A stretch of DNA of 64,000 nucleotides from Liquorilactobacillus nagelii DSM 13675. GTDB taxonomy: Bacteria > Bacillota > Bacilli > Lactobacillales > Lactobacillaceae. A model generated the notes under the pieces. That model did no database searches. It was not told where the DNA came from and worked only from the letters and a program-made list of their open reading frames with translations. The DNA lies in assembly GCF_019444005.1 (NCBI RefSeq), contig NZ_CP049304.1, forward strand, positions 310,001 to 374,000, read 5' to 3'. This document shows, piece by piece, positions 53,109 to 56,085 of the stretch. Within the stretch, counting starts at the first letter, position 1, and each line of letters begins with the position of its first letter. The position numbers and the translations under genes were made by a program.

Positions 53109-53164
53109 AAATTAACGTTGAGGCTTGTTTTTTGGGTAGTTGAGTGGTTTAATAATAGTTAATT

Positions 53165-53383
53165 GATGTGGAAGACAAAAGGACGATACTTACAGGGATG
53201 GCAGTTATTAACTGAGAAGCTGCTTCTAATCGGCTTACCACTTCCATTTACTGCTCAATTAAAAGTTGAGTCGGGTCGTGTCCGTTAAGCACGAATTCGA
53301 GGAGATCTTTGACTGATCTTGAAATTGGGTGGAACCACGGATAAACGTCCCAGATATGCAAATTTGTATATCTGGTTTTTTTT
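53165..53383 (+). promoter_or_regulatory. T-box riboswitch for threonine, upstream of thrS
   Basis: The T-box core GGGTGGAACCACGG is at 53327-53340. Stem I closes with TGGAAG (53169-53174) and CTTCCA (53241-53246). Next to its 3' arm the sequence ACC-A gives specifier ACC (Thr) at 53237-53239. The terminator CCAGATATGCAAA/TTTGTATATCTGG (53349-53375) is followed by eight T. Low threonyl-tRNA charging should switch thrS on. Confidence 0.9.
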
Positions 53384-53411
53384 ATTCGCTAAAAAATTAG
53401 GAGGCTTTAGT

Positions 53412-55361
53412 ATGTCAAATATAGAAATTGAATTCCCTGATGGGGCAAAAAAGGAATTCGCTACGGCTACAACGGTTAGAGAAGTTGCTGCAACAATCAG
53501 TAATAGTTTAGCCAAAAAGGCGGTGGGAGCGAATTTTGCTGGTAAAGTAGTTGGGTTGAATCATCAGTTGAAATCCGATGGTAAGTTAGCTATCTTAACT
53601 AAAGACCAACCGGAAGCTTTACCAATTTTATGGCAGACTGGAGCAGTTGTCTTGGGAGCCGCTTTACAAGAACTTTATCCAGAAATGTATTTTGGCGAAA
53701 GTGATATTACGGAACATGGATTCTTTTTAGATACAGATAATCAGAGTGGACAAGTTGCAGAAACAGAATTTGAAAAGTTAAATCAGCATTTGCAAAAATT
53801 AGTCAAACAAGCACTTCCTTTGGAAGAAGTTGAACTTGATTTGCAAGCAGCTTTGAAAATCGTTGGCAATGATCCTTATCGCCAGGAATTGATTAACGAG
53901 CAGGCAACTGATGATCAAAAAGTTACAGCAATTAAATTAGGCGATTATTATGACTTTTCAGTTAGAGCAGTTTTAGGTAATACTGCAGCCTTAAAAGTTT
54001 TTAAGCTATTGTCAGTGGCTGGAGCTTATTGGAAAGGTGCTTCTAGCAATCCAATGTTACAACGAATTTATGGGACAGCTTTCTTCAAACAAAAAGATTT
54101 GGATGCTGAGTTAGCGCGGCAAAAAGAAGCTCATGAACGTGATCATCGAGTTATTGGGAATGAATTGGATTTATTCTTCGTTGATCCCAAAGTGGGAGCA
54201 GGGTTACCATATTGGATGCCAAAGGGTGCAACAATTCGACGCACAATTGAACGTTACATTATTGATAAAGAAGTTGCTGATGGATACCAACACGTCTATA
54301 CACCAGTTTTAGCGAACTTGGATTTGTACAAGCAGTCGGGCCATTGGGATCATTATCGAGAAGATATGTTTCCACCAATGGATATGGGAGATGGTGAGAT
54401 GTTGGAATTGCGTCCAATGAACTGCCCATCACATATTCAAATCTATAATCATCATATTCGTTCTTATCGTGAGTTACCATTGAGAATTGCTGAATTAGGG
54501 ATGATGCATCGTTATGAAAAGTCGGGTGCTTTAACTGGTTTATCACGTGTTCGCGAAATGACTTTAAATGATGGTCATACTTTTGTAGCTCTTGACCAAA
54601 TTGAAGCAGAATTCAAAAAGATTTTGCAGTTGATGGTTGGAGTTTATGCAGACTTTGATATTACTGATTATCGTTTCCGCTTAAGTTATCGTGATCCTGC
54701 GAATAAGCGCAAATATTTTGATGATGATGAGATGTGGGAAAAATCTCAAAAAATGTTGAAATCAGCTATGGATGATTTGGGATTAGAGTATTTTGAAGCT
54801 GAAGGTGAAGCTGCTTTCTATGGTCCAAAACTTGATGTTCAAACTAAAACCGCTTTGGGTGGGGAAGAAACTTTGTCAACAATTCAATTAGACTTCTTAT
54901 TGCCTGAAAGATTTGACTTGCATTATATTGGTGCAGATGGACAGGAACATCGTCCAGTTATGATTCATCGTGGAATTGTTTCCACAATGGAACGCTTTAC
55001 GGCTTATCTGACCGAAATTTATAAAGGTGCTTTTCCAACCTGGTTAGCACCACAGCAAGTAGCAATCATTCCGGTAAATAATGATTTACATCTTGATTTC
55101 AGTCAAAAATTACGTGATCAATTGGTCGCAAAGCATGTTCGAGTTCAAATCGATGATCGTAATGAAAAAATGGGGTACAAGATTCGCCAAGCTCAAGTTA
55201 ATAAAATTCCGTATACGTTAGTTGTTGGAGATAAAGAGATTGCAGCTGATCAAGTAACGGTTAGAAAATATGGCGAAGAAGCTACAAATACGATGGCAGT
55301 AACTGATTTTATCAAAGAAATTTCTGCTGATGTTGCCAGCTATAGTCGTGAAAATAATTAA
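53412..55361 (+). CDS. thrS: Threonyl-tRNA synthetase with degenerate editing site
   Basis: A 649-residue class II synthetase: TGS domain (residues 1-62), editing-type N2 domain (about 63-235), catalytic core (about 245-535) and anticodon domain (to the end). Zinc-binding Cys338 (MNCPSH), His389 (NDGHTF) and His519 (MIHRG) are intact, so charging should work. In N2 the family motif HxxxH is replaced by Gln75 and Val79 (WQTGAVV), and the C-x3-H of DLCRGPH by Ser183 and Val187 (DFSVRAV), so hydrolysis of mischarged Ser-tRNA looks lost. The ATG at 53412 follows TTAGGAGG. Controlled by the Thr T-box. Confidence 0.96.
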
Positions 55362-55413: not shown

Positions 55414-55524
55414 AGAAAAAAGCAGAAGCACCCGCTTCTCGCCTAGCAGACATGAGCCTGCGGGCCGATGAACGATTTAATTATTCAAATTAAGCGGGGA
55501 GCTTTGAAGAGCTTTCCGCTTTTC
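55414..55524 (+). promoter_or_regulatory. L20 leader (ribosomal protein autoregulation)
   Basis: The structured 5' leader contains GAAGCACCCGCTTCTCGCCT and a GCCTGCGGGC hairpin, as in Firmicutes L20 leaders. It ends in a terminator-like stem AAGCGG (55492-55497) with CCGCTT (55516-55521) and TTTT. Excess L20 is expected to bind here and cause early termination of infC-rpmI-rplT. Confidence 0.75.
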
Positions 55525-55563
55525 TGCTGCATTTCTCTGAAATTTTAATGGAGGTGAAAGACC

Positions 55564-56085
55564 ATAGCAATTGATAAAATGGTTAACGAAGGCATTCGTG
55601 CCCGTGAAGTTCGGCTGATTGCCGGTGATGGTTCACAATTAGGAGTTAAATCCAAACAAGATGCATTGAAGATTGCTGAACAAGACAACTTGGATCTCGT
55701 TTTAGTTGCCCCTAAGGCAAAACCACCAGTTGCCAGAGTCATGGATTATGGGAAGTATCGGTTTGAGTTGCAGAAAAAGCAGCGTGAAGCACGAAAAAAC
55801 CAGAAAATTGTTAATGTTAAAGAGGTCCGCCTGAGTCCTACAATTGATGTTAATGATTTTAATACCAAAATGAAAAATGCTCGTAAATTTATGGCTAAGG
55901 GTGATAAGGTCAAGGTTTCTATTCGTTTTAAGGGTCGGGCAATCACTCATAAAGAAATTGGTTACGAGGTTTTGGATCGCTTCGCTAAAGCAGCAGCAGA
56001 CATTGCTGTTGTTGAATCTAGAGCTAAAATGGACGGCCGGAGTATGTTTATGATGCTTACTCCCAAGACTGAAAACAAGGCTTAA
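55564..56085 (+). CDS. infC: Translation initiation factor IF-3
   Basis: A protein of about 173 residues. Its N-domain starts [24 protein letters not shown]; a Lys-rich linker ([18 protein letters not shown]) follows, then the C-domain ([18 protein letters not shown] and [15 protein letters not shown]). The first ATG (55579) lies 22 nt after the GGAGGTG site (55550-55556). An ATA at 55564, seven bases after that site and in frame, is the best-placed start, giving (M)[10 protein letters not shown]. infC commonly uses rare starts such as AUU, through which IF-3 limits its own synthesis. An ATT at 55570 is the alternative. Confidence 0.93.

Follow-up and report, generated by a model that had tools for sequence, protein, structure and literature searches.

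A threonyl-tRNA synthetase lacking its editing-site residues in Liquorilactobacillus nagelii and most lactobacilli sampled

Within a 64,000-nucleotide stretch of DNA from Liquorilactobacillus nagelii DSM 13675 (contig NZ_CP049304.1, positions 310,001 to 374,000, the whole of which is called the window here), the gene thrS encodes a threonyl-tRNA synthetase (ThrRS) in which all four residues of the N2 editing site have been replaced. Alignments made by phmmer with the S. aureus (1nyq) and E. coli (1qf6) enzymes, gap-free at both the HxxxH and the CxxxH motif, place residues Q75, V79, S183 and V187 of the window protein opposite E. coli H73, H77, C182 and H186, and a MAFFT alignment of 200 ThrRS sequences gives the same placement. 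Where an editing-competent ThrRS of the N2 type requires H, H, C and H, the window enzyme has Q, V, S and V. The gene and its parts lie in the window as follows.

53412..55358, + strand: thrS, threonyl-tRNA synthetase, 649 amino acids; TIGR00418 (thrS) 660.2 bits, cut-off 383.65; the sole full-length ThrRS match in the genome
53412..53600, + strand: N1/TGS domain, approximately residues 1-63 (PF02824 at residues 6-63; fold model)
53601..54083, + strand: N2 domain, approximately residues 64-224; predicted editing fold without the catalytic residues
53634..53648, + strand: former HxxxH motif, Q75 (53634-53636) and V79 (53646-53648), from the alignments
53958..53972, + strand: former CxxxH motif, S183 (53958-53960) and V187 (53970-53972), from the alignments
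54423..54425, + strand: zinc ligand C338, in MNCPSH; in 159/159 Lactobacillaceae sequences, with a family-wide S340 two residues further on
54576..54578, + strand: zinc ligand H389; in 159/159 Lactobacillaceae sequences
54966..54968, + strand: zinc ligand H519; in 159/159 Lactobacillaceae sequences

A sequence-only reading of this DNA had claimed the loss of all four editing residues and had proposed alignment with other ThrRS as a check; both alignments bear the claim out. It had also taken the gene to be full-length, the zinc residues to be intact and the enzyme to be functional rather than decaying, and the sequence evidence supports these points as well. The open reading frame (ORF) starts with an ATG behind AGGAGG, and all three zinc ligands are present. 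A Pfam search of the protein calls the TGS, class II catalytic and anticodon domains and does not call tRNA_SAD; the tRNA_SAD profile run on the genome gives 22.1 bits at thrS (cut-off 24). In a fold model the N2 fold is retained. Apart from the four missing residues the enzyme is intact and, in sequences that share the loss, under purifying selection (ratio of nonsynonymous to synonymous substitution, dN/dS, 0.246 in N2 and 0.096 in the catalytic domain), so the gene is not decaying; by its sequence, the protein fits the description of an editing-deficient aminoacyl-tRNA synthetase (aaRS), with its editing residues gone and its synthetic domain retained.

Among the best 120 of 7995 ThrRS-like proteins, 116 lack all four residues and 4 retain a single His, which rules out a sequencing slip; many of these are near-copies, the window's own included, and the closest named relative among the proteins listed is Liquorilactobacillus vini (P0013, 82%). 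For the wider survey three states were distinguished: HHCH (intact), HHDL (HxxxH with DxxxL) and lost (HxxxH/CxxxH residues replaced). The 200 aligned sequences comprise the window protein, the best 80 of 589 confirmed named loci, 59 loci (37 from the family and 22 from other families) and 60 taken stretches (41 from the family and 19 from other families); they are not independent, since a species may appear under both a named and an unnamed entry, as with L050 and L159. The family search covered 201 genomes in 40 genera, each genus being represented at least once. Lactobacillaceae account for 159 sequences, which divide into 130 lost (121 with none of the four residues and 9 with His75 only), 23 HHDL and 6 HHCH; by genus, 32 are lost, 7 are HHDL and 1 is HHCH, and no genus is mixed among these sequences. 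In the other families of the order (f2-f9), HHCH is found in 41/41 sequences (from 41 of 70 out-of-family genomes; one is an N-terminal piece). The loss had been expected to be unusual in a free-living lactobacillus, an expectation that its presence in 32 of the 40 sampled genera does not support. Periweissella fabalis (L050) belongs to the HHCH genus. A search with an HHDL query listed 120 proteins, of which 119 are HHDL and the remaining one is from P. fabalis; names among the matches listed are Leuconostoc, Weissella, Oenococcus and Fructobacillus. Replacements in the lost sequences are scattered, with eight other residue types at position 75, nine at 79, seven at 183 and eleven at 187, and are therefore as expected of a released site. 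In a sample of the phylum, at least two PF07973 matches were listed for 147 of 148 other genomes and one for the genome G380, a rough proxy in that the second match need not be ThrRS.

Some lactobacilli have also lost the N-terminal domain. ThrRS of two genera, g3 and g6, are approximately 600 amino acids long and lack both TGS (N1) and the editing residues (L091, L092, L097, L098, L105, L109, L111, L113 and L207); g6, we infer, is Limosilactobacillus. Paucilactobacillus and Limosilactobacillus ThrRS (P0121-P0139) show the same pattern, PF02824 being missing in 119 of 120 proteins listed (the exception is P0140). One genome, G042, has two ThrRS genes, at C1:215220-217004 (L091) and C1:1927726-1929507 (L207), both QLAV and both without TGS; P0121, from Paucilactobacillus hokkaidonensis, is identical to L091 over the query.

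The history of the trait was traced on trees built from the catalytic and anticodon domains only, with N2, the trait itself, excluded. All 98 lost sequences fall on one side of one branch in the FastTree tree (140 sequences, support 90), as do all 61 in the IQ-TREE tree (101 sequences, SH-aLRT 89). The HHDL sequences and Periweissella form the other group (support 98, FastTree), and on either tree it takes three changes to account for the three states; within that other group Periweissella is weakly placed, such that the HHDL label requires two changes as drawn and possibly one. In the simplest account, a single full loss occurred on the lactobacillus stem, and the other side changed C to D and H to L independently; Periweissella may have regained its intact gene.

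N2 has diverged faster in the lost sequences. Of positions that are invariant in intact enzymes, 48/76 in N2 fall below 80% in the lost sequences, versus 13/190 in the catalytic domain. At equal catalytic distance (0.12-0.16), the mean N2 distance is 0.532 for lost, 0.297 for HHDL and 0.277 for outgroup sequences, and the corresponding anticodon-domain values are 0.434, 0.453 and 0.414. The end of N2 is conserved, with GAY..G.SSN.MLQR in at least 95% of lost sequences. On the Leuconostoc side (HHDL sequences L093-L096, L099, L100, L102-L104, L106-L108, L110, L112, L117-L119, L122, L123 and L185-L188), HxxxH is kept, a fixed DxxxL stands in place of CxxxH, and the constraint on N2 equals that seen in intact enzymes; this pattern may reflect an altered editing chemistry.

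The residue loss, its single-branch distribution, the faster divergence of N2 and the presence of one ThrRS gene are established at the level of sequence. We consider it probable that the window enzyme is an ordinary ThrRS with an N2 editing site that has been dead since the ancestor of the lactobacilli, serine being excluded by the first sieve only and the remaining errors tolerated. By this account, the loss of the editing site would go back to the ancestor shared by all lactobacilli (Lactobacillaceae minus the Leuconostoc/Weissella/Periweissella side). Threonine would still be charged to tRNA(Thr) through the zinc site, N2 would have been retained as a holder of the acceptor arm and of the enzyme's architecture, serine would be kept out only by the selectivity of the zinc site and by pre-transfer hydrolysis of Ser-AMP, Ser-tRNA(Thr) would no longer be hydrolysed after transfer, and the cell would tolerate the residual Thr-to-Ser errors. 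That the window enzyme would be unable to clear Ser-tRNA(Thr) is expected by analogy, because E. coli mutants in the editing residues lose activity: kcat drops >500-fold in C182A/S, 7000-fold in H73A and 70-fold in H186A, and all four residues are termed critical (PMC4041444). Serine-for-threonine mistranslation in this bacterium is plausible. Tolerance combined with first-site selection appears the most likely outcome, because the yeast mitochondrial ThrRS, MST1, has pre-transfer editing alone, still mischarging serine in vitro (PMC4267643), and because E. coli C182A has little growth defect (PMC10057733). MST1 is likewise without post-transfer editing (PMC4267643); it has no editing domain, whereas the window ThrRS, to judge from its sequence, retains N2 as a shell.

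Several points weigh against this explanation. A single loss has moderate branch support (89-90). Purifying selection on N2 persists, as its dN/dS of 0.246 indicates, and in many lost genomes N2 still exceeds the SAD cut-off (G038 and G193, for instance, each give 45 bits), leaving slight room for an unrecognised activity. A published table gives a mild growth defect with excess serine for E. coli C182A (PMC10057733), and ThrRS editing defects are listed among those causing bacterial growth defects (PMC11415595). Two free-standing INS deacylases, taken up below, are candidates for clearing Ser-tRNA(Thr) in trans. The explanation itself is built on sequence, models and published mutants.

It is doubtful, if conceivable, that the synthetic site has become choosier for threonine and that editing is thereby unneeded. 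Ser340, two residues past the zinc ligand C338, is present in 159/159 family sequences, and His occupies this position in 40/40 outgroup sequences covering it; nearby positions in the sequence carry further near-fixed changes (332 V to E and 350 H to R), and ProRS without an editing domain and mitochondrial PheRS provide precedents (PMC11415595). However, Periweissella combines S340 with intact editing residues, so S340 is insufficient alone, and position 340 is Gly in E. coli and His in S. aureus. In addition, the catalytic domain of the first structure model is poor (predicted TM-score, pTM, 0.49), which leaves S340 without a spatial placement. We regard S340 as a lead for a possibly altered selectivity.

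Proofreading might instead have been taken over by another protein. The genome, rated 100% complete and 3.91% contaminated, contains no second ThrRS and thus offers no rescue of the thrS/thrZ kind: there is one full match, and three others are partial (at most 31.2 bits), the two best lying inside the 586-amino-acid ProRS frame and the third in a 422-amino-acid frame. It also contains no free-standing SAD editor of the AlaX kind, the PF07973 matches being an 887-amino-acid AlaRS frame and the weak ThrRS match, and archaeal ThrRS-ed (PF08915) is present in 0/33 genomes including this one, the control being found in 3 archaea. Of the ways out that had been put forward, a second ThrRS and a stand-alone editor of these two kinds were thus looked for in this genome and not found. 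When 44 genomes of the family were searched for SAD, a free-standing 181-amino-acid SAD protein was seen in one lactobacillus genome (G040, C19:261486-261614); the same search gave a 372-amino-acid frame (G035) and a 417-amino-acid frame, possibly a piece of AlaRS (G007, HHDL). PF04073, by comparison, finds in the L. nagelii genome the ProRS domain and two free-standing INS proteins.

C1:1424362-1424721, - strand: INS protein, YbaK/EbsC-like; 126.7 bits, equivalog cut-off 153.25
C1:2390846-2391196, - strand: INS protein, ProXp-x-like; nearest solved relatives 1wdv and 2cx5

AlaX, archaeal ThrRS-ed and ProXp-ST1/ST2 are all proteins that could provide Ser-tRNA(Thr) hydrolysis in trans, and ProXp-ST1/ST2 clear Ser- and Thr-tRNAs by hydrolysis, also when the tRNA is tRNA(Thr) (PMC11295145). 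We nonetheless think it unlikely that one of the two INS proteins does so here. By profiles and structures they are nearest to YbaK/EbsC, 1wdv and 2cx5, in a comparison made without any ST1/ST2 profile, and an ST1/ST2 identity would be putative for either; 2cx5 is an example of ProXp-x (PMC11295145). Nor is the INS count higher where editing residues are lost: across 69 genomes the mean number of matches is 2.17 in lost (n=36), 2.57 in HHDL (n=7) and 2.28 in outgroup genomes (n=25), with 2 in the intact family genome (n=1), and 31/36 lost genomes have 2 matches, of which, where listed, one is the ProRS domain. A congener, G030, has one INS match fewer than this genome, so the distribution of one of the two proteins is patchy. 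Within ProRS-sized frames the INS domain is weak in G035 (C4:52252-52596, 70.7 bits) and G036 (C2:916108-916404, 57.8 bits), others listed scoring approximately 84-107; a decay of ProRS editing in some lactobacilli is possible.

General decay of editing in this genome was considered, and the two other enzymes looked at speak against it: AlaRS keeps HTATH and CGGNH, and the PheRS B3/B4 domain scores 230.7 bits, inside the range of six outgroup genomes (219.7-240.5). Among the editing domains looked at (AlaRS, PheRS and ThrRS), ThrRS alone has therefore been lost. Two genomes, G001 at 148 bits and G003 at 186.4, give weaker PheRS B3/B4 scores than the others.

It is very improbable that different residues now form an editing site in N2, whether retained or rebuilt. 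The predicted fold and the residual constraint (the same dN/dS of 0.246) are compatible with one, and a changed site may be functional in the sister group (Leuconostoc, Weissella, Oenococcus, Fructobacillus), whose N2 combines HxxxH with the fixed DxxxL and is under as much constraint as that of intact enzymes. However, the window N2 has two His (102 and 126), neither of them conserved in lost sequences, and zero Cys; the sole N2 column with His or Cys in at least 30% of lost sequences is 93 (His, 35%), where most outgroup sequences also have His. An artefact of alignment, assembly or a pseudogene is refuted by the breadth of the distribution, the lost state occurring in independent named genomes of many genera with gap-free motifs and under purifying selection.

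Compared with the canonical bacterial ThrRS of S. aureus (1nyq) and E. coli (1qf6/1tje), the window enzyme has the same domain order, zinc ligands and, in the model, N1-N2 fold; it differs in its four replaced editing residues and in an approximately 2-fold N2 divergence at equal catalytic divergence. The mitoribosomal protein in 7o9k/3j7y (chain 7), which we take to be mL39, is a component of the ribosome, unlike the window synthetase. Unlike hosts of AlaX or ThrRS-ed, this genome pairs the altered ThrRS with neither, and its INS proteins resemble YbaK/EbsC and 2cx5/1wdv. Mycoplasma aaRSs, ThrRS included, offer a natural loss of editing beside a working synthetic domain (PMC7373986, PMC10057733), as appears here from sequence. 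Mycoplasmas are host-restricted and have reduced genomes, whereas here the loss extends over a large family with genomes of approximately 1.2-3.5 Mb and, in this genome, normal-looking AlaRS and PheRS editing domains.

Upstream of thrS, the T-box claimed by the sequence-only reading is recovered as a match, at a score under the Rfam gathering score, at which it goes unlisted.

53154..53355, + strand: T-box leader; RF00230 52.5 bits, gathering score 93, E 6.8e-11
53237-53239, + strand: ACC specifier codon of the T-box, read by eye

A sub-threshold ROSE_3 match (28.6 versus 43 bits) at 53350-53417, across the end of the T-box and the ribosome site, is probably due to chance. Downstream, an L20 leader (RF00558, 65.9 bits) lies at 55414-55533, ahead of an infC-like ORF at 55579.

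Among the titles and abstract openings listed by searches of the open-licence literature on ThrRS or synthetase editing in lactic acid or free-living bacteria, none reports this editing-site loss in lactobacilli. Editing domains are reportedly intact in free-living species, according to a 2018 abstract by Melnikov. Natural editing-deficient synthetases are known, mainly in host-restricted organisms per reviews (PMC10057733, PMC7373986, PMC11415595). A broader picture, to which we give a little less than an even chance, is that lactobacilli have been since their origin without ThrRS post-transfer proofreading, with a standing Thr-to-Ser ambiguity, that the sister branch (Leuconostoc, Weissella, Oenococcus) fixed a constrained HxxxH/DxxxL pocket with a different chemistry or job, and that Limosilactobacillus and Paucilactobacillus then dropped TGS. 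The family amounts to a natural experiment, with intact (Periweissella), altered (the Leuconostoc side) and lost (lactobacilli) states side by side and laboratory strains available. In it one can ask directly if the cell puts up with Thr-to-Ser errors, prevents them at the synthetic site or removes them in trans, a question of some relevance to lactobacilli as protein producers. If true, a loss throughout this clade of culturable food and gut bacteria would stand out as a clear exception, and these free-living bacteria may tolerate, or otherwise control, serine-for-threonine errors.
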